A stretch of 37,119 nt of DNA, from NCBI GenBank assembly GCA_035764505.1, contig DASTZC010000276.1, positions 1 to 37,119 on the forward strand, in the 5' to 3' direction. A program made the translations under genes and the position numbers. Source of the stretch: Candidatus Polarisedimenticolia bacterium (GTDB taxonomy: Bacteria > Acidobacteriota > Polarisedimenticolia > Gp22-AA2 > AA152). Each line of letters starts with the position of its first letter. Within the stretch, counting starts at the first letter, position 1. The notes below the pieces were generated by a model. It was given only the letters and a program-made list of their open reading frames with translations, did no database searches and was not told the DNA's origin. This document shows, piece by piece, positions 2,440-17,609 of the stretch.

Positions 2440-3951
2440 GTGAACCTTCCAGCGCTTTGTCCTGGGACGAAACGATCCAGAAGCTCGAGCTCCCGGGCCT
2501 GGATTGCCGCGCTGCTGATTCTCCTCATGGGCACCGCGATCTCCTGGAGCCAGGCGCCGCATTGCCCGAAGTGCGGCGCCGAGGTGGAGACAGGAGATTC
2601 GTACTGCTCGCAGTGCGGCGCGAAACTGGAGGGAATCGCCGCGGCCGCGGGCACCGCCGCACCCCAGCCCAGGGAATCGCTGATCCAGGTCGTGGCCATC
2701 CACGACCGAGAGGCCACTTCCGTGTACGAGGCGATGGCCAACGGCGCCACCGTACGCGTGGACTCGCTGCTTGGCAGCGGGTTTTCTCTGGGCGGAGGCG
2801 AGTTTCTGTCGGATGCTTCCCTCCTGATGGGAGCGCGCGAGATCCGGATACGGGACGCGCGCGGGAGAACGGGATCGGCGCGAATCACGGCCCTGGATCC
2901 TCTCGTCGGCGTGGGACTGCTGTCGTCGGATCTCAACGACATCCCTCCGCTGGCGCGCCGTCAGGCGGAGCCGATGCGCGAGGGAGAAGAGCTGCTGGCC
3001 CTCGGCTACACGTCGGCGAGCGGCATGGCCCCGGCGGTGACAAGCACGCCGGGCGTGGTGAGCGGACTGCATCGATCCGGATTCGGGATCCATCCGGTCG
3101 AGGACTACCTGCAGAGCGATGTCTCGCTGCCCCGCGGGTTCGCGGGCGGCCCCGGGGTCGATGCGCAGGGCCGGCTGGCGGGCATGTGCACCGCCATGCA
3201 GTTCGGACAGAATTTGATGCAGGGGATGACGGGTATCGGATTGCTGATCCCGGCGGAATGGCTGGACCGCAGCCTGGCCTGGATGCGGGCCGGCTCTCCT
3301 CCTCGAGTCTGGATAGGCGCCCACGTGGAGCCGGCCGATTCCGACTCCCGGAAACTCTTCTCTTTGGGTCCCAACATCCGCTGGGTCGTGGAGGATGTCT
3401 TCCCCGACAGCCCCGCCCAGCAGGCGGGAATGCGACGTGGAGATGGGCTTTCGAAGGTACACGGAGAGGTCCTGACCACCCTGGCTGTCGTACAATCAAT
3501 CCTGCTGCAGGCTGCCGCCGGAGACAAATGGGTCGTCGAAGTCCAGCGCGAAGGGAAGGCCGTGCCGATCGATCTGGTCCTGGCACGGCGGCCCGACCGC
3601 CCGCGTCTGACGGGTCGTGACGCTCTGCGGCTGTACGGCGGCTTCGAGATCCAGCCTGAGAGCGACTCGCGTCTGGTGATCTCGCGGGTCCAGGCCGGTA
3701 GCGAAGCATCGGACAGCAAGCTGCAGCCGGGCGATGCGCTGGCTTCCTTCTTCACCAAGAAGGACATGGAGCATGTGGAGCGCTCCGACGCACGCTGGAG
3801 AAGCGTCAAGGATCTGGGCGATCTGGAGACGCAGATCCAGCGGGCCTATTCCGATCTCGATTTCTTCCTCGGGTTGCGGTTCCGATGCAAGGACGGCGAG
3901 AAGCGGACCCTTTTCCTGTACCAGATGTTGACGGCTACGAACGCGCTATGA
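2440..3951 (+). CDS. Second exported zinc-ribbon, trypsin-fold pseudoprotease with PDZ domain
   Basis: 503 residues from a GTG at 2440, ten bases after the previous gene, preceded by GAGGCAGGA. It repeats the layout of its upstream neighbour: basic N-terminus, hydrophobic export segment (about 20-38), double-CxxC ribbon (Cys42, Cys45, Cys56, Cys59), a trypsin-like domain and a PDZ domain (about 295-390), then a second PDZ-like region. The HtrA blocks align clearly but read SDASLL, VGVGLL and GFAGGP, so His is Ser127, Asp is Gly157 and Ser is Ala235. The context YLQSDVSLPRGFAGGPGVDA mirrors the normal catalytic-serine region, so the loss is not an alignment slip. It is probably a paralogue from tandem duplication and a likely scaffold or sensor. 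The stop overlaps the next gene's ATG. Confidence 0.83.
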   Translation: MNLPALCPGTKRSRSSSSRAWIAALLILLMGTAISWSQAPHCPKCGAEVETGDSYCSQCGAKLEGIAAAAGTAAPQPRESLIQVVAIHDREATSVYEAMANGATVRVDSLLGSGFSLGGGEFLSDASLLMGAREIRIRDARGRTGSARITALDPLVGVGLLSSDLNDIPPLARRQAEPMREGEELLALGYTSASGMAPAVTSTPGVVSGLHRSGFGIHPVEDYLQSDVSLPRGFAGGPGVDAQGRLAGMCTAMQFGQNLMQGMTGIGLLIPAEWLDRSLAWMRAGSPPRVWIGAHVEPADSDSRKLFSLGPNIRWVVEDVFPDSPAQQAGMRRGDGLSKVHGEVLTTLAVVQSILLQAAAGDKWVVEVQREGKAVPIDLVLARRPDRPRLTGRDALRLYGGFEIQPESDSRLVISRVQAGSEASDSKLQPGDALASFFTKKDMEHVERSDARWRSVKDLGDLETQIQRAYSDLDFFLGLRFRCKDGEKRTLFLYQMLTATNAL

Positions 3952-6605
3952 TTGGCCAGGGAGCTCCCGTGACGGCTCGACGCCTTCCGCACAGGATCGT
4001 GATTCTCGCGGCACTTTTGGCCACGGGCACGTCGCTGTCCGGCGCGGCGGTCAAGACCAGCGCCCACTCGGGCGGCTGGAACAAACATTCCACCTGGGTG
4101 GGCGGCGCCGTGCCTCTCCCATCCGACGAGGTGGTGATCGCCTCCGGGCACCGCGTCGTTTTCACCCAGTTTGCCAACGGCGTCGACGAATGCGCCCGGC
4201 TCGTGGTTGAGAGCGGGGGCGAGATGGTGATTTCGGGAAACCGGGTGGTGTTCGAGATGGGCGGCAACGGCGTGGGAGTAGCGGGCGGCGTCGACATTTC
4301 CGGCCGGATGAGCCTCATCGGCGGCGTCACCCTGAGCCTGCGTCCCGACGGCAACGCCACGGCGGCGGAGGACGGCGTGCGGGTGCGCGCCGGCGGGCTG
4401 CTCCAGGTCAAGGGAGATATCCTGCATCAGGGGACGGTGGCTTCGGTCATCGCCGATGACGGAACGTCGGACATCTACCTCACCGATCCCTCGCTGCCGT
4501 CGCTGGTCTACAGTCCGGAGTTGCGGGTCGCCTGGCGCTCGGGGCAGCGCAAGGGGCGCTGGTACGATCTGACGTCTTTGTCGGGGAGCACCTTGCTGCT
4601 CGACTACGACAGCCGCAGCAACGCGCAGCGCACCGGACAGCCCGACTACCGGACAGGCCTGGCGTCGGTGTCGGGGAAGAACGTGACCGGGTCCGGGACC
4701 TTATGGAACAACGCGCTCGCGGCGGGCTCCTGGTTCTGGTGTGATGCCGACGGGATCGGGACCAGGGTCCGCGTCGAGAAAGTGGTGTCCGCGACGTCGC
4801 TCGTCCTGGCCTTCGCGATACCGGGCTCGGCCTGCTTGTCACCCGGCGCCTACACGCTGCGCGACGAGAACCAGCCCTATCCGGCCTCCGACGTATCCGA
4901 GAAGGTGGGCGTCGGCGACCAGTACCAGATCCTCCGCCCGGCCGTGATACGCGGCGCCGGAGCCTCGGACACCGATTTCGACCATCAGATCTTCGTCCGC
5001 GTGGAGCCCGGCGCAGGCTATGACTTCGAGGCGGCTTCCTTCGAATCGGTCGGCAAGGAAGCCTGGGCCACGGGAAGCGGCAGCGGCATTTATATCCAGG
5101 GCTACACGGGAGGCGGCGCATCGACCGGGATCTTCGACACGGTGGAGATCTATCGTTACGCCGGCGAGGCGGCGATCGAATGGGAGGACTCGACGCGCTT
5201 CGATGTCGACTGGCTCTTCCTGCACTGGGCGCATCCGATGATCACGGCGCGAAACGAAGGACACGGCCTGAAGATCGAGCATACACGACCGGAGCTCTCC
5301 GCCGACGACGTGCACGTCCGCAACGCCCGCTTCGATCGGACGAATGACGATTTTGTCTGGTGGTCCTCGAAAGCCGGGGGGAGCTCCGGGGTCTACGACA
5401 GCATCGGCAAGTACTGCCCGAACACCGCCTCCGGCGACTCGTGCGACGCGGTCGATACCCTCGATCAGGTCGGAAGCCCCGGAGGGCAGCTGCGCATCGA
5501 GCACAACCTCTTCGCCAACATCGGCGCGGACGATGGCGGTTCCTGCCTGCAGGTCGCCTCGATCGGCAGCGGCGCCACACCGGCCTGGACCGGCCAGGGC
5601 TGGGTGGCGCGCGACAACGTCTGCCTCAACCTGCAAAGCACTTCCTGCTTCATCACGATCGGGTCTACGCGCACCTGGGACCGGGAGAGCATCTGGGCCG
5701 TTAATAACGTGTGCGTCAGCGTGTTGGGCAACGGCATGGAAGCGATTCCGCGCGCCTTCCAGAACGAGATTCTGCAGTTCGGGCTGGTCCGCAACATGGC
5801 GGCGGACGGCATCCGGGATGCCTACCAGGCGCGTGGCAACATCGTGCGCGGCGCCGACCGCCGAAGCATCGACACCTCCTTCTTTCCGCGCGGCATTTCC
5901 GTGGGGGTCGGATTGCCTAACCACTCCGCCTGGATGGGCACCGGCTGGTCGGTCACCGACAATGCGGTGCTGGTTTCGGGGCTCGGCATGATGGTCCTTT
6001 CATGGTCGTCGGCCGCCTATCCTTCGACCCAGGATGGCTTCCTCCTCCACAATCTTTTCATGCGTCCGCCGCGTGATAACCCCGCTATCCAGATGACCGG
6101 CCTCTTCGACGCGCATGTGGAGCCCGCCGCCGCGCGCATCAACATCACCGACAATATCTTCGAGGCCATGGGAGCGATGATGTGGAAGGCCGGCGTGGGC
6201 TACGGGAATTCGATGTTGGATTTCCTGAACTACAGTCTGGTCAACAGGCTCTCCGGCTCGGGAGCCGACTGGATTGGATCTCTGACGTCGATTTCCCAGG
6301 TCAGCGGGACGACCGGCCTCCAGGGAACCAGCAGCATGGGCCTGGAGATCCTGCCGGGCACGGCGGCATGGCTGGCACCGACCAGCGACGGCTCCCGGAT
6401 CGGCCCGCGCTATGCCGGGACAGACCCGGCCCGGCTTCCGAGCGTTCCCGCCGAGCTCTTCCTGCCGGTCGATCCCGACCACGACGATCTCGACTCCGAT
6501 GGCGACGCTTTGATCGACCGGTGGGACAACTGTCCTGCAGTGCCGAATCCCGGATGGGCCGATTCCGACGGCGACGGGATCGGGGATGCCTGCGATCCAA
6601 GCTGA
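3948..6605 (+). CDS. Secreted G8/parallel-beta-helix protein with thrombospondin type 3 calcium-binding tail
   Basis: 885 residues from the ATG that overlaps the previous stop; a GTG eight codons later is an alternative start. Residues 1-35 are an export signal (hydrophobic run RIVILAALLATGTSLSGAA). The N-terminal part has GGWNKHSTWVGGAVPLPSDEVVIASGHRVVF, split here into the motifs W-x-GG-x-P and V-I-A-S-G-H, typical of G8-like carbohydrate-associated domains. The middle 600 residues show the repetitive short-strand pattern with asparagines (DNVCLN, VNNVCV, TDNIFE) expected of a right-handed parallel beta-helix. The last 45 residues carry DxDxDG repeats and a Cys pair (NCPAVPNP, DACDPS), the thrombospondin type 3 calcium-binding signature. 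I expect a surface or secreted polysaccharide-binding or lyase-like protein; no catalytic residue can be assigned. Confidence 0.75.
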   Translation: MIGQGAPVTARRLPHRIVILAALLATGTSLSGAAVKTSAHSGGWNKHSTWVGGAVPLPSDEVVIASGHRVVFTQFANGVDECARLVVESGGEMVISGNRVVFEMGGNGVGVAGGVDISGRMSLIGGVTLSLRPDGNATAAEDGVRVRAGGLLQVKGDILHQGTVASVIADDGTSDIYLTDPSLPSLVYSPELRVAWRSGQRKGRWYDLTSLSGSTLLLDYDSRSNAQRTGQPDYRTGLASVSGKNVTGSGTLWNNALAAGSWFWCDADGIGTRVRVEKVVSATSLVLAFAIPGSACLSPGAYTLRDENQPYPASDVSEKVGVGDQYQILRPAVIRGAGASDTDFDHQIFVRVEPGAGYDFEAASFESVGKEAWATGSGSGIYIQGYTGGGASTGIFDTVEIYRYAGEAAIEWEDSTRFDVDWLFLHWAHPMITARNEGHGLKIEHTRPELSADDVHVRNARFDRTNDDFVWWSSKAGGSSGVYDSIGKYCPNTASGDSCDAVDTLDQVGSPGGQLRIEHNLFANIGADDGGSCLQVASIGSGATPAWTGQGWVARDNVCLNLQSTSCFITIGSTRTWDRESIWAVNNVCVSVLGNGMEAIPRAFQNEILQFGLVRNMAADGIRDAYQARGNIVRGADRRSIDTSFFPRGISVGVGLPNHSAWMGTGWSVTDNAVLVSGLGMMVLSWSSAAYPSTQDGFLLHNLFMRPPRDNPAIQMTGLFDAHVEPAAARINITDNIFEAMGAMMWKAGVGYGNSMLDFLNYSLVNRLSGSGADWIGSLTSISQVSGTTGLQGTSSMGLEILPGTAAWLAPTSDGSRIGPRYAGTDPARLPSVPAELFLPVDPDHDDLDSDGDALIDRWDNCPAVPNPGWADSDGDGIGDACDPS

Positions 6606-6611
6606 GGAAGG

Positions 6612-7094
6612 ATGCCGCGCGACTCCAGCACGTTGCGAGTGGGCTCGTCCGCGCCCGATTTCACGCTGCGCACCGCGGAAGGGGAAGCCTTCACGCTGCG
6701 CGACGCCGGCGGCCCGCTGGCGCTCATCTTCATCCGGGGCACCTGGTGACCCAACTGCCGCAGGCAGCTGGCTCAGTTGGAGCCGGCGGAAGCGGAGTTC
6801 GCCGGGCGGCGCGCCAGGCTGTGGATGGTCGCGGCGCAGAAACCCTCGGGGCTGTCGGACCCGCGCGGGCTCCTGAGCAAGCCACGGTGGTTCCCGATCC
6901 TGCTCGATTCGGATCGCGGTGTAACGAAGGCGTACGGTGTCTATCACGCCTTGTCGGTGGACGCCTACCGCATCGCCCGGCCCTCGGCCTTCGTGATCGG
7001 AAAGGATCGCCGCATTTCCTTCATCTTCGTCTCTTCCAATCAGTGGGAGCGCGTCCCCCTGGCCGATCTCCTCGCCGCGCTGGAGGGCGCTTGA
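6612..7094 (+). CDS. Peroxiredoxin/redoxin-family protein with in-frame TGA (probable selenocysteine, Sec46)
   Basis: 160 residues if the TGA at 6747-6749 is read through as selenocysteine. The ATG at 6612 follows GAGGAAGG. Translation upstream of the TGA gives VGSSAPDFTLRTAEGE and LALIFIRGTW; downstream in the same frame it continues PNCRRQLAQLEP to a normal stop at 7094. In AhpC/TSA-type redoxins this block is RGxWCPxCRRQL, so the TGA sits exactly on the peroxidatic/first cysteine and makes a UxxC motif (Sec46, Pro47, Asn48, Cys49). No frameshift is needed and the rest of the thioredoxin fold is intact (SAFVIGKDRRISFIFVS). There is no signal peptide, so it should be a cytoplasmic thiol peroxidase or oxidoreductase. 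A sequencing error or true nonsense mutation is the alternative. The downstream M42-like gene starts inside this stop (TTGA). Confidence 0.82.
6751..6780 (+). promoter_or_regulatory. Candidate bacterial SECIS hairpin for Sec46
   Basis: Starting two bases after the TGA (6747-6749), CCAACTG (6751-6757) is perfectly complementary to CAGTTGG (6774-6780). Inside, GCC can alternatively pair with GGC (6757-6759 with 6770-6772), leaving an apical loop CAGGCAGC with a GG at 6763-6764, about 14 bases after the TGA. Bacterial SECIS elements lie directly behind the UGA inside the coding sequence and present a G in a small apical loop to SelB. A competing local fold, CTGCC-GCA-GGCAG (6755-6767), also exists, so the precise structure is uncertain. 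Confidence 0.55.
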
Positions 7095-8200
7095 GGTCGC
7101 TGCGTCGCTTTCTCCCGACAGCGCTGGCCTGCTTCTGCCTCGTCTCTTCTTTGCAATCCCAGGACCTCGAGTCGCTGCGTGCGCTGATTCGCGCCCAGGG
7201 CGTCTCGGGGCGCGAAGCGAATGTGCGCGACGCGATCCAGTCACGCCTTCCGGCGGGACGCCGCGCGGAAGTGGACAATCTCGGGAACCTGGTGCTCGTC
7301 CTGGGAAGCGGCCGGCCGGTGAGGCTCGTCATGGCGGCGATGGACGAAGCTGGCTTCGTCGTGACGCAGATACGCCCGGATGGCTACTTGCGCGTGCGAC
7401 GTCCCGCCCGGGAGCCGCTGCCGCCCCGCTTCAACGCCTATTTCGTCGGACAGCCCCTGCTCATCGGCGCCGCCGAGGGGCGGGATCCCATTCCCGCGGC
7501 CGGCGCGATCCTGTCGACGCACCTGCAGCGGGGCCGCGCCGATAACGCGGCCCCGGCCCCGCCGCCGCGCGACGAGGATCTCCTGGTGGATGCCGGGGCG
7601 CGCAGCGAGGCCGAAGCGAAGGCGGCGGGCATCCGTCTGCTGGCGCCCGTGACCCTGGAGAAAGACCTGGCGGTGCTGGGGGGAGGCATGGTGGCGGGAT
7701 TCGCGATGGACGGCCGCGCCGGCTGCGAGGTGCTGCTGCAGCTGGCACGCAATGTCACACCGCCGAAAGAGGGATCGCTCGTCCTGGCCTGGGCGGCGCA
7801 GAGCTGGTCGGGGGAGCGGGGGGCCCAGCGGCTGGCGAAGCGCTTCGAGGCGGACGAGGTCCTCGTTCTGGATTTCTACTCCGCCGCCGCGGCGGATGAG
7901 ACCGGGAAGCCGCCGGGCGGCCGGGCGGGGCGCGGTCCCTTCCTGGCCGATTCCCCCGAGAAGGACGCGGCCTCCCGCGCCCTGCGCGCCGGGATTCGCG
8001 CGAAAGCCCATGCCCTCGGCATTCCTCTCCAGAGTGTCCGTTTCCCTTCCACCCATGATGGCAAGCCCTTCGCGGGGCGCCCCCTGGCGGTCCTCGGCGT
8101 CCCGGTCCGCTTTCCGGGAACTCCGGTGGAGACGGTGTCGCTCGACGATCTCGACACGCTCATCCGGCTGATGGACGCTTATCTCGAGTCGCTGCGGTGA
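7091..8200 (+). CDS. M42-family peptidase homologue, catalytically degenerate, exported
   Basis: 369 residues from a TTG at 7091 that overlaps the selenoprotein stop; no better start keeps the signal peptide (residues 1-23). The fold matches glutamyl aminopeptidase/M42 proteins and aligns along its length with the next gene. Comparison shows loss of essential positions: the first metal-binding His of AHMDE is Ala83 (AAMDE), the catalytic/ligand pair EE of VQEEIG is Ser238-Trp239, and the last ligand His of HSPVE is Gly343. Asp207 (MDGRAG) and Asp261 remain. I infer an inactive paralogue, perhaps a partner subunit in the large tetrahedral assemblies formed by this family. It is not an obvious pseudogene, as the frame is intact and packed between overlapping neighbours. 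Confidence 0.78.
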   Translation: MRSLRRFLPTALACFCLVSSLQSQDLESLRALIRAQGVSGREANVRDAIQSRLPAGRRAEVDNLGNLVLVLGSGRPVRLVMAAMDEAGFVVTQIRPDGYLRVRRPAREPLPPRFNAYFVGQPLLIGAAEGRDPIPAAGAILSTHLQRGRADNAAPAPPPRDEDLLVDAGARSEAEAKAAGIRLLAPVTLEKDLAVLGGGMVAGFAMDGRAGCEVLLQLARNVTPPKEGSLVLAWAAQSWSGERGAQRLAKRFEADEVLVLDFYSAAAADETGKPPGGRAGRGPFLADSPEKDAASRALRAGIRAKAHALGIPLQSVRFPSTHDGKPFAGRPLAVLGVPVRFPGTPVETVSLDDLDTLIRLMDAYLESLR

Positions 8201-9309
8201 GGCGCGCCCGGGTGGCGGCGATCGCGGCGCTGGCCCTCGCCTTGGGTGCGCTCGAAAGGCCGCCGTCGGGTGCCGCGGAGAAAGACTCCCGCAGCTTCAC
8301 GGTCCTGGAGCCGTTGATGCTGGCTCCCGGAGTGTCGGGACGCGAGGAGAAGGTCCGCGAAGCGATCCTGCGGCTCCTTCCGGCATGGGCCCGCCAGAGC
8401 GCCACCGTCGACGGCAGCGGCAATCTGCTGGTGCGCACCGGGTCGGGAGGCGAGCGGATCCTGTTCATCGCCCACATGGACGAGACCGGGTACGAGATTA
8501 CCGGGCTCGAAGCCGACGGCACGGCGCGGGTGAAATCGCTGGGCGGCTTCTTCGCCACGCTCTACGAGGCGCAGAGAGTCGTGGTGCACACCCGTGCAGG
8601 AGAGCTTGCCGCAATCGTCCGTCCCCGCTCCGACTACCTGGACGCACGATCCGCCGCGGCGCCTTTCTTGGAGAAGGATCTGACGGTCGATTTCGGCACT
8701 TCAACCCTGGAGGAAACCCGGCAACTGGGGGTTTCCCGCGGAGATTGGATCACCATTCCCAAGATTTTCCGCCGTCTGGCGGGGGATCGGGCGACCGGCC
8801 GAAGCGTCGATGATCGAGCCGGATGCACGGCCCTGGTCCAGGCGATCGGCAGGCTGGATCCGAAGAGCTTGAAGAACAGGGTCACCTTCGCCTGGTCCGT
8901 CCAGGAAGAGATCGGGCTGAAAGGGGCGGAGGCGATCGCCGCCCACGACCCCTTTGACGTGGTATTTGCGGTGGATACCTTCGTCTCCTCAGACTCGCCC
9001 CTGGAGACTCCCGCCTTTGCCGACGCCATCCTTGGGGAGGGGCCCGTCTTGAGGGCGATGGACAACTCCAACCTGGCTCCCGAAGCGGGCCTGGAAAAAG
9101 TCGAGCGAATCGCCGCGGCCCGCAAGCTGCCCCTGCAGATCGGCCTGACCCATGGAGGCAACGACGGCTCGGTTTTTCCCCCGTACGGCGCCATCGACAT
9201 TCCGCTTTCCTGGCCGACCACCTACTCCCATTCCCCGGTGGAAGTGATCCACCAGCGCGATCTCGATAACCTGGGGCGGCTCGTAGCTATCCTCGCAGAG
9301 GAATGGTAG
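8197..9309 (+). CDS. M42-family metallo-aminopeptidase, exported
   Basis: 370 residues from a GTG inside the previous stop (GTGA). An N-terminal hydrophobic stretch (residues 5-18) suggests export. All M42 metal and catalytic positions are present: His93 and Asp95 in AHMDETG, Asp205 or Asp206 in SVDDRAG, Glu237-Glu238 in VQEEIG, Asp260 in FAVDT and His345 in SHSPVEV. Such enzymes are cocatalytic zinc or cobalt aminopeptidases that trim peptides and often form dodecameric tetrahedra. It ends what looks like a seven-gene unit beginning upstream of the window; the next gene has its own promoter. Compared with the adjacent degenerate copy it is the probable active member of the pair. Confidence 0.88.
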   Translation: MRRARVAAIAALALALGALERPPSGAAEKDSRSFTVLEPLMLAPGVSGREEKVREAILRLLPAWARQSATVDGSGNLLVRTGSGGERILFIAHMDETGYEITGLEADGTARVKSLGGFFATLYEAQRVVVHTRAGELAAIVRPRSDYLDARSAAAPFLEKDLTVDFGTSTLEETRQLGVSRGDWITIPKIFRRLAGDRATGRSVDDRAGCTALVQAIGRLDPKSLKNRVTFAWSVQEEIGLKGAEAIAAHDPFDVVFAVDTFVSSDSPLETPAFADAILGEGPVLRAMDNSNLAPEAGLEKVERIAAARKLPLQIGLTHGGNDGSVFPPYGAIDIPLSWPTTYSHSPVEVIHQRDLDNLGRLVAILAEEW

Positions 9310-14182: not shown

Positions 14183-15943
14183 ATGCGCAAGTTCCCGGGG
14201 CTGATGCTCATCGCCGCGCTGGTCGCCTGCCGCGGCTCCGCGGAGCCTCCCTCGCCTCCCGCCACCCCTTCCAGCGATTCGGCAACCACGGTGCCGGCCG
14301 CGCCGGATACGCCCCCGACGGTCCGCGGTGAAGTGCGGTTCGAGGAGCGTGCGCGCGCGGCAGGCATCGATTTCATCCACGTGAACGGGGCCTTCGGCAA
14401 GAAATGGCTGCCCGAGACGATGGGCTCGGGCGCCGTCTTCCTCGACTACGACGGTGACGGCGATCAGGATCTGTTCCTGGCCAACGGCAGGAGCTGGCCG
14501 GGCCGGATAGCCGCCGGCCGCGCCGGAGGGGCGCTCTACCAGAACGACGGCAAGGGAAGCTTTCGCGACGTGACGCGCCGCGCCGGGCTGGCCCTGGAGC
14601 TTTACGGCATGGGCGCCGCGGCCGGAGACGTCGACAACGACGGCGACGTGGACCTCTACCTGACCGGTCTGGGAAGCGCCCACCTTCTCCTCAACAATGG
14701 TGACGGGACCTTCCGTGATGCGACCGCGTCGTTCGGCGTCGGAGATCCGGGTTGGAGCACCAGCGCCGCCTTCCTCGATTTCGACCATGACGGCGATCTC
14801 GACCTTTTCGTCTGCAACTACGTGGCATGGACCCCCGAAACCGACCTGTTCTGCACCCTGGACGGCAAGAAGAAGAGCTATTGCACTCCCGAGTCGTACC
14901 GCGGGCTCACCAGCCGCCTGTACCGCAACGAGGCGGGGAAGCGCTTCACCGACGTTTCCGATGCCGCAGGAATCGCCAAAGGAGGAGGCAAGTCCCTGGG
15001 AGTGGCGACGCTCGATTACGACGAGGACGGGTGGATGGATCTGGCGGTGGCCAACGACACGCAGCCCAACCAGCTCTTCCGGAACCGCGGCGACGGGACC
15101 TTCGAGGAGAAGGGGGTTGAGACCGGCATGGCCTACAGCGAGAGCGGCGTGGCGCGCGGGGCCATGGGGATCGACGCGGGGGACTATCTGAACCGCGGTC
15201 CCGAGAGCCTGCTGATCGGAAATTTCTCCAACCAGATGCTCGCGCTGTACCACAACTCCGGGAAGGTCTTCATCGACAAGGCTCCCGCTTCGGCGCTGGG
15301 CCCGACGAGCCTGCTGTTCCTGGCCTTCGGGCTCTTCTTCTTCGACTACGACCTCGACGGCTACGCCGACATCCTGGTCGCCAACGGCCACGTCGAGGAC
15401 GAGATCCAGGCGGTGCAGGAGCGCGTCTCGTACGAAGAGCGCCCCCTGCTGTACCGCAATCTCGGGGACGGGAACTTCGAGGAGGTGGGAATGAGCAGCG
15501 GTCCCGACATGGCGAAGCCGGTGGTGGGCCGCGGGGCGGCCTACGCCGACGTCGACGGGGACGGCGACCTGGACTTCATCATCAGCGTCAACCATGGCGC
15601 GCCGCGGCTGCTCATCAACCGGCTTCCGGCCCAGCAGCGCCACGCCATCCGCCTGACGGCCGAGGGAGTCACCGGGAACCGCAGCGCCATCGGCGCCCGG
15701 TTCCGCCTGCGCGCGCAGGGCAAAGAGCAGCGTCGCTGGGTCAAGAGCGGCTCGTCCTACTGCTCGCAGAGCGAGCTGCCCATTACCTTCGGCCTGGGCG
15801 CGGCGACCGCGGCCGACGAGGTCGAGGTCACCTGGCCGGGGGGAAAGCAGGAAGCGCTGGGCCGGCTCGAGGCCGGCCGCGCTTACGTCGTGCGCGAAGG
15901 GAAGGGGATTGTCGATTCCCGGCCGCTCGCGGGCCTGGATTGA
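14183..15943 (+). CDS. CRTAC1-like FG-GAP/VCBS repeat lipoprotein with ASPIC/UnbV domain
   Basis: 586 residues. The signal peptide ends in a lipobox (ALVAC, Cys16), so it should be a lipoprotein. After a Ser/Pro/Thr linker come the CRTAC1 opening FEERARAAGIDFIHVNG and a series of FG-GAP/VCBS calcium-binding repeats (DYDGDGDQDLFLANG, DVDNDGDVDLYLTG, DFDHDGDLDLFVCN, DYDEDGWMDLAVAN, DYDLDGYADILVANG, DVDGDGDLDFIIS), forming a beta-propeller. The last 90 residues are an ASPIC/UnbV domain (VKSGSSYCSQSELPITFGLG, VTWPGG). The role in bacteria is unknown; surface adhesion or carbohydrate binding is the usual guess. The next gene follows after ten bases. Confidence 0.9.
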   Translation: MRKFPGLMLIAALVACRGSAEPPSPPATPSSDSATTVPAAPDTPPTVRGEVRFEERARAAGIDFIHVNGAFGKKWLPETMGSGAVFLDYDGDGDQDLFLANGRSWPGRIAAGRAGGALYQNDGKGSFRDVTRRAGLALELYGMGAAAGDVDNDGDVDLYLTGLGSAHLLLNNGDGTFRDATASFGVGDPGWSTSAAFLDFDHDGDLDLFVCNYVAWTPETDLFCTLDGKKKSYCTPESYRGLTSRLYRNEAGKRFTDVSDAAGIAKGGGKSLGVATLDYDEDGWMDLAVANDTQPNQLFRNRGDGTFEEKGVETGMAYSESGVARGAMGIDAGDYLNRGPESLLIGNFSNQMLALYHNSGKVFIDKAPASALGPTSLLFLAFGLFFFDYDLDGYADILVANGHVEDEIQAVQERVSYEERPLLYRNLGDGNFEEVGMSSGPDMAKPVVGRGAAYADVDGDGDLDFIISVNHGAPRLLINRLPAQQRHAIRLTAEGVTGNRSAIGARFRLRAQGKEQRRWVKSGSSYCSQSELPITFGLGAATAADEVEVTWPGGKQEALGRLEAGRAYVVREGKGIVDSRPLAGLD

Positions 15944-15953
15944 CGGGAGCGCG

Positions 15954-17609
15954 ATGTTCGACTTGATCCTGCGCGGAGGATCGGTGGCGGACGGCACCGG
16001 CGCGCCGCGCTTTCCCGCCGACGTCGCCGTCCAGGGCGGCCGCATCGTGGAGATCTCGCCGAAGCTCGCCGCTTCCGCAAGCGGTGAGATCGATCTCGAC
16101 GGTCTCGTCCTCGCACCCGGATTCATCGACCTGCATTCCCACTCCGACCTGCTGTTCACCCTGCCGGAATCTCAGCAGCGCCAGCTGTTGGGCGGGCGGC
16201 TGCGGCAGGGCATCACCACCGAGCTGGTCGGCAACTGCGGCTACGGCCCCGCGCCGGTCACCGAGGAGAGCCTGCCGCTTTTGCAGAAGATCAACGGCTT
16301 CATCACGCCCGACGGGGTCTCCTGGGACTGGAGATCCTTCGCCGAGTTCCTCGAGGTGGCCGAATCGCGCGGTCCCCTCCTGAACATGGCGGCGCTGGTG
16401 TCGCACGGTGCGGTACGGATCGCCGCGATGGGGATGAAGCCGGACCTTCCTTCCACGGAAGAGTTGCGCTCCATGGATCGATCGATTCGCGACGCGCTGG
16501 CGGCGGGGGCCTATGGAATCTCGTACGGCCTGATCTATCCCCCGGGACAGTTCGCGCGCACCGACGAGCTGGTTTCCACCGCCGCCTCGGCCGCGGCGGG
16601 AGGAGGCTTCGCGGCTTTCCACCAGCGCGGCAGCGGGGTGGACACCTGCCTGGCGGCGGTGGAGGAGATCCTGGAGGTCGGCCGGCGCGGTCGCTGTCCG
16701 GTGCACCACTCGCACGAGGAATCGGTCGGTCCCGATGCCTGGGGCCTGGTGGAGAGCGTCATTCGCCGGGAGGAGCGGGCGAGGCGCGAAGGGATCGAGC
16801 TGACCATGGACGTGATCCCCTATACCTGGGTCTGCACCACCATGCTCGCCGTATATCCGCCCTGGGCGCTGGAAGGAGGGGTGGAGGCTTTCCTGGAGCG
16901 GCTGCGCGATCCTTTCCTGCGCTCCCGCATGAAGCGGGAGGTGGGAAGCGCTGCCCCGTCCTGGCCGCCCTGGGAGGGCAACGGCTGGATCATGAACCTG
17001 GTGCGCGAGGTGGGTTGGGAGCGGATCCATGTGGGACACGTCAACAGCGAGGCGAACCGCTCCGCGGTCATGCTGAACCTGGTCGAGCTCGCCGCCGCGC
17101 GCCGGCGCGAGCCCTTCGACGCGCTCTCCGATCTGATGCTCGAGGAGAAGGGGGTGGTCACCCAGCTGATCTTCGGCATCTCCGGGGACGCGCGCACCGA
17201 CCTGCCGCTGCTGCCGCTGATCGCACATCCCGACCGCGCCCTGGTGAGCGACGCCTGGGACATCGGCAAGGGCTCCCCTCACCCCGGTGCCTATGGAGCC
17301 TTCCCCCGGGTGCTCGGGCACTACGTGCAGGAGCGCGGCCTGCTCACCCTGGAGGAGGCGATCCGGAAAATGACGTCGCTGCCGGCGGCGCGGCTGGGGG
17401 TTTCCGATCGGGGGGTCGTACGCCCCGGGGCGCACGCCGACCTTGTGGCCTTCGACCCCGTGCTTGTGCGCGATCGGGCCACCTGCGCCGATCCGCGCCT
17501 CTATCCCGATGGCATCGAGCTGGTCGTCGTCAACGGTACGGTGGCGGTTCGCGGCGGGGAGATCGTCGCCGCGCATGCGGGCCGCGTATTGCGCCGGGGC
17601 GCCGCGTGA
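15954..17609 (+). CDS. N-acyl-D-amino-acid deacylase family amidohydrolase
   Basis: 551 residues. The ATG at 15954 has GGGAGC a few bases ahead and begins with the amidohydrolase opening FDLILRGGSVADGTG. Family marks are the HxH metal motif in FIDLHSHSDLLF, the D-aminoacylase VGNCGYGP with its metal-bridging Cys, VHHSHEE, GHVNSE and the C-terminal SDAWDIGKGSPHPGAYGAFPR, written here as SDAWD and HPGAYGAFPR. Such enzymes hydrolyse N-acyl-D-amino acids or related cyclic amides to free D-amino acids; the exact substrate is open. There is no signal peptide. It is sandwiched between two FG-GAP/ASPIC proteins and overlaps the next gene by four bases (GTGA). Confidence 0.9.
   Translation: MFDLILRGGSVADGTGAPRFPADVAVQGGRIVEISPKLAASASGEIDLDGLVLAPGFIDLHSHSDLLFTLPESQQRQLLGGRLRQGITTELVGNCGYGPAPVTEESLPLLQKINGFITPDGVSWDWRSFAEFLEVAESRGPLLNMAALVSHGAVRIAAMGMKPDLPSTEELRSMDRSIRDALAAGAYGISYGLIYPPGQFARTDELVSTAASAAAGGGFAAFHQRGSGVDTCLAAVEEILEVGRRGRCPVHHSHEESVGPDAWGLVESVIRREERARREGIELTMDVIPYTWVCTTMLAVYPPWALEGGVEAFLERLRDPFLRSRMKREVGSAAPSWPPWEGNGWIMNLVREVGWERIHVGHVNSEANRSAVMLNLVELAAARRREPFDALSDLMLEEKGVVTQLIFGISGDARTDLPLLPLIAHPDRALVSDAWDIGKGSPHPGAYGAFPRVLGHYVQERGLLTLEEAIRKMTSLPAARLGVSDRGVVRPGAHADLVAFDPVLVRDRATCADPRLYPDGIELVVVNGTVAVRGGEIVAAHAGRVLRRGAA

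Follow-up and report, generated by a model that had tools for sequence, protein, structure and literature searches.

The locus analysed here raises a two-part question: is the internal TGA of a redoxin gene read as selenocysteine (Sec), and, if it is, which active-site residue does Sec replace? The gene lies in a window (the whole stretch of DNA analysed, 37,119 nucleotides) that corresponds to contig C276 of a nominally 100%-complete, 4.46-Mb draft assembly of 288 contigs. Positions 6612-7094 of the forward strand translate to MPRDSSTLRVGSSAPDF...LIFIRGTW*PNCRRQL...LLAALEGA*, with a single internal TGA at codon 46 (6747-6749), located between RGTW and PNCRRQL and followed by 114 open codons; the terminator of the gene, at 7092-7094, is itself a TGA. 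The read-through product matches the Pfam AhpC-TSA profile (1.9e-20) over residues 10-136, which covers both flanks of the TGA, and scores lower with the Redoxin profile (1.1e-16). The features of the gene are as follows:

6604-6611, forward strand: strong Shine-Dalgarno-like sequence GAGGAAGG, directly 5' of the ATG, as seen in the sequence
6612-7094, forward strand: gene for a predicted 160-residue Prx-like (AhpC/TSA-fold) UxxC redoxin whose residue 46 is Sec (profile match, alignment, AlphaFold2, Foldseek)
6747-6749, forward strand: in-frame TGA, predicted to be read as Sec (U46), which opens the active-site motif UPNC (column conservation, Cys homologues)
6756-6758, forward strand: TGC codon of C49, the predicted resolving Cys of UxxC (aligned to the peroxidatic residue, Cys or Sec, in true peroxiredoxins)
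6758-6795, forward strand: predicted SECIS hairpin, with an 8-bp upper stem (GCUGGCUC/GAGCCGGC) and a lower stem CCGC/GCGG (folding)

The first-pass annotation of this DNA had described a probable selenoprotein, namely a full-length redoxin broken only by the TGA at 6747-6749, which retains a UxxC motif and which a standard annotation would split or drop. These claims hold. The AhpC-TSA match spans the TGA and the arrangement recurs in other genomes, the motif U46-P-N-C49 is confirmed, and a mechanical ORF list gives, in the redoxin frame, the gene tail 6777-7094 alone, in line with the expected splitting. Sec genes, conservation of the TGA, a SECIS-type hairpin, selection and gene coupling all agree with the selenoprotein assignment. 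A scan of the window for other in-frame TGAs near Cys codons returned many, as expected in G+C-rich DNA, and only that at 6747 falls within a recognisable redox family. Judging from sequence, we estimate at about 0.9 the probability that the redoxin gene encodes a selenoprotein, its internal UGA being read as Sec.

The first-pass annotation had also proposed searching the genome for selA, selB, selC and selD, and all four are present: selA scores 543 bits (cut-off 268), selB 336 bits (cut-off 242) and selD 366 bits (cut-off 125), while selC is a tRNA-Sec of 73.8 bits, over the Rfam cut-off, which ARAGORN names tRNA-SeC with anticodon TCA. The window itself, scanned with Rfam at gathering thresholds, gave zero matches. 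The selD gene (L017, G000:C274:16176-17102, minus strand) is predicted to be a selenoprotein gene too, as it has a single in-frame TGA within SGGUAAK; the U of SGG-U-AAK is the usual Sec site of SelD. The Sec motif of SelD has been given as UxxK (PMC13188914). At least five predicted Sec genes occur in the source genome, and they include three further candidates:

G000:C19:26586-27053: L023, a Prx-like UxxC redoxin with an in-frame TGA (RGHWUPYC)
G000:C232:7357-7701: L025, a Prx-like UxxC redoxin with an in-frame TGA (SADWUPYC)
G000:C119:3966-4346, minus strand: L027, a secreted-looking BCP/PrxQ-type peroxiredoxin with predicted Sec at the peroxidatic position (FTGGUTAEC)

Across the sampled genomes, selA was found in 25 of the 26 with a TGA-type match (the lone exception is 75% complete) versus 6 of the 13 whose best match is free of in-frame stops (Fisher p 7e-4), some genomes being classed in this tally by whether their match contains one TGA rather than by alignment column. 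In G201, a relative of the same genus with an 89%-complete genome, tRNA-Sec was not found, though selA is present.

Conservation of the TGA was assessed in 396 genomes of the phylum, 69 of which have a match with an E-value no higher than 1e-10; the majority of these matches contain exactly one TGA. In an alignment that drew on the best loci of this search, TGA occupies the column of the window's TGA in 25 loci from other genomes (24 phylum-sampled loci and L061, an Acidobacteriota record), always with Cys at +3, and also in two paralogues of the source genome; C49 is invariant. Alignment with Cys homologues, another check put forward by the first-pass annotation, places the in-frame UGA over a Cys codon (TGC/TGT) in six of them (L050, L052, L054, L056, L058, and L060), which is the pairing used as a membership test. 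The independent genome G201 has the same TGA in a protein 70% identical to that of the window; given this and the recurrence of TGA at the same column in the 25 other-genome loci, chance and sequencing error can be dismissed. Between the window gene and this relative, the sequence after the TGA has a dN/dS of 0.22/1.33, or ~0.17 (NG86), and is thus under purifying selection. In a tree of 28 rows, at least two changes between Sec and Cys are needed, and the branch holding the window gene comprises 14 Sec rows and one Gemmatimonadota Cys row.

A published model of bacterial SECIS elements specifies a loop of 3-9 nt, a G at either of the first two loop positions, a distance of 16-37 nt from the UGA and an MFE <= -7.5 (PMC13188914). 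The window hairpin lies within all of these limits, as its apical loop, AGUUG (6775-6779), is 25 nt past the TGA and its MFE in the bSECIS test is -13.8. The hairpin region folds at -22.2 kcal/mol (z -2.5). As a fold of the full 60 nt span gave a z of only -1.05, we used hairpin-centred and synonymous-recoding tests. A stricter rule (stem >=6 bp, loop G then G or U) is satisfied by 23 of 28 TGA genes, five TGA homologues failing it, and by 0 of 6 Cys genes; among background TGAs, 64 of 1072 (6.0%) pass. Synonymous recoding of the post-TGA codons, which parts RNA from protein constraint, showed a more stable fold for TGA genes than for the recoded versions (mean z -1.5; Stouffer pooled -7.6, a statistic that overstates significance and independence because the homologues are kin), together with longer stems (6.7 vs 4.4). 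The corresponding values for Cys genes are a z of +0.2 and stems of 3.3 vs 3.7. Covariation in the stem is weak: four pairs changed on both sides, slid controls gave similar counts, and the register of the stem shifts by one nucleotide between subclades.

The neighbourhood of the gene provides further context. Two peptidase genes follow the redoxin gene:

7091-8200, forward strand: M42-family peptidase with a signal-peptide-like N-terminus and a probable TTG start overlapping the redoxin stop (overlap TTGA)
8197-9309, forward strand: second M42-family peptidase, overlapping the first (profile match; same order in the relative)

The overlap between the redoxin stop and the M42 start is kept in G201, as ATGA instead of the TTGA of the window, and so is the order of a pair of HtrA-like proteases, the redoxin and two M42 peptidases. 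A general operon with M42 peptidases was rejected, as the link is found within the genus only. The protease pair consists of tandem trypsin/PDZ (HtrA-like) proteases (174-2429 and 2440-3951), each with a zinc-ribbon match, and is retained in G201. Between this pair and the redoxin, the window contains a 906-residue ORF (3885-6605) with C-terminal repeats of the DxDxDG calcium-binding type and zero Pfam match, which is absent from G201. Further along, an FG-GAP/ASPIC-UnbV repeat protein (14183-15943) adjoins an amidohydrolase (15909-17609).

Could the TGA have a meaning other than Sec? It is one base away from Cys codons and the 288-contig assembly is a draft, so that a TGC or TGT may have mutated, leaving a pseudogene, or been misread. 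However, cross-genome conservation of the same TGA at 25 loci already refutes this explanation, and purifying selection after the TGA and a SECIS signal in TGA copies alone also speak against it; we consider its probability negligible. Decoding of UGA as another amino acid (Cys or Trp, for example) by a suppressor tRNA or through a code change would fit the Cys found at the homologous position, and an inserted Cys would also yield a working enzyme. Yet TGA terminates genes here too, including the redoxin gene itself, the genome encodes the full set of Sec pathway components, a UCA tRNA-Sec among them, and the hairpin accompanies TGA copies while being absent from the tested Cys copies, all of which makes such decoding highly improbable. 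Finally, because termination and Sec insertion compete at selenoprotein genes in general, the UGA might be a selenium-dependent switch between a 45-residue peptide and the full protein, and the coupling of the M42 gene to the far end of the redoxin gene could be viewed in the same light. This seems very unlikely, as our analysis gives the 45-residue product no functional support and the M42 coupling is lost outside the genus. Sec insertion, our preferred reading, is supported by sequence data of several independent kinds, namely the Sec machinery, the conserved TGA, the hairpin, post-TGA selection and the fold. SelB bound to the SECIS hairpin just 3' of the UGA would allow the ribosome to insert Sec from tRNA-Sec (UCA) without termination.

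The second part of the question concerns the residue replaced. The AlphaFold2 model of the redoxin has a mean pLDDT of 90.8, and the nearest folds retrieved by Foldseek belong to peroxiredoxins, Bcp4 and AhpE among them (TM about 0.8). A phmmer alignment with the peroxiredoxin 2cx3 sets IRGTWCPNC over FPAAFSPVC, with U46 on the Ser of PxxxSxxC and C49 on the peroxidatic Cys, the residue marked by the PxxxT/SxxC motif. Similarly, in a joint alignment, the Sec of the TxxU peroxiredoxin from the same genome (L027) falls on C49, not U46. The first-pass annotation had proposed that the TGA replaces the peroxidatic Cys; this part must be corrected, as U46 sits at the Thr/Ser column and C49 corresponds to the peroxidatic position. 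On the alignments with the solved Prx 2cx3 and with the same-genome TxxU Prx, we rejected U46 as a counterpart of the peroxidatic Cys. At the positions of the peroxiredoxin signature (PxxxT/SxxC(U) plus Arg), the redoxin has R42, U46, C49, and P124, of which only C49 fits: U46 and P124 (at the conserved Prx Arg column) stand in for the catalytic Thr and Arg. Its UxxC is thioredoxin-like, and R-P is at the cis-Pro-like position. As judged from alignments and the predicted model, the redoxin is a Prx fold with a thioredoxin-like UxxC active site, and it displays the combination used to recognise Prx-like UxxC proteins, an AhpC-TSA/Prx fold with UxxC for TxxU.

Correcting the position of Sec replaces a peroxidase by thiol:disulfide exchange as the chemistry to be expected, and sequence features make such exchange the probable activity rather than peroxide reduction. 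A true peroxiredoxin, in which Sec would be the peroxidatic residue of a Sec-dependent peroxidase, is suggested by the closest folds (Bcp4, AhpE), by weak matches to NCBIfam thiol peroxidase models and by the capacity that a selenolate could have to attack peroxides. Nevertheless, the protein is without PxxxTxxC, its Sec is at the Thr/Ser column with a Pro at the conserved Arg column, and a separate TxxU peroxiredoxin exists in the same genome, so we regard a Sec-dependent peroxidase as unlikely. Under thiol:disulfide exchange, the product would be a cytosolic Prx-fold thiol:disulfide oxidoreductase with U46-P-N-C49 as its site. The U46 selenolate would act as nucleophile on a disulfide, or possibly on peroxide, C49 would resolve the intermediate as a selenenylsulfide between U46 and C49, which a thioredoxin-type partner would then reduce to recycle the enzyme.

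Proteins of this kind have been described. A Sargasso Sea study reported Prx-like proteins with distant Prx homology in which UXXC replaces TXXU (PMC1088965), and a 2026 catalogue contains both a Prx-like thiol:disulfide oxidoreductase (PF00578, UxxC/UxxU) and a Redoxin family protein (PF08534, UxxC) (PMC13188914). On the basis of these published proteins and catalogue entries, and as far as sequence comparison goes, the redoxin is a member of the Prx-like UxxC selenoproteins. It shares with them (PF00578; PMC1088965; PMC1794560; Prx-like 1, PMC2398784; PMC13188914 Table 1) the AhpC-TSA domain, the distant Prx homology, the thioredoxin-like UxxC for TxxU and the existence of Cys homologues; it differs in belonging to an Acidobacteriota clade with RGTWUPNC and a DAxxIAxP block. 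Compared by description with the Redoxin family selenoprotein (PF08534; PMC13188914 Table 1; compare Prx-like 3, PMC2398784), it likewise has a Redoxin match and UxxC, but scores higher with AhpC-TSA. Its best NCBIfam model is the SelL-related redox protein NF040769, which matches in the same active-site region; membership was rejected, as 47.7 bits is far under the curated cut-off of 120 bits. SelL is characterised by UxxU, unlike the window redoxin with its UxxC. Sec-peroxiredoxins (TxxU, e.g. PrxU), with one member in the source genome (L027), have the same fold but a peroxidatic Sec, whereas that of the window redoxin is three residues earlier.

Annotation routinely cuts selenoprotein genes short or overlooks them, and the redoxin gene is an example. 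Sec was already known in Acidobacteriota, for which a 2006 survey listed four selenoproteins from three selenoprotein families (PMC1794560) and three selenoprotein genes were reported in Occallatibacter (PMC12013277); here, many of the sampled Acidobacteriota genomes encode the Prx-like UxxC type with a predicted Sec. It is conceivable, though we find it quite doubtful on sequence grounds, that an Acidobacteriota-centred redoxin clade normally carries Sec, with Cys as the exception, and would then represent a distinct selenium-dependent enzyme and not an ordinary Cys enzyme in a Sec version. If so, the enzyme of this clade would perhaps carry out a peroxide or protein-disulfide reduction tied to the adjoining protease cluster.
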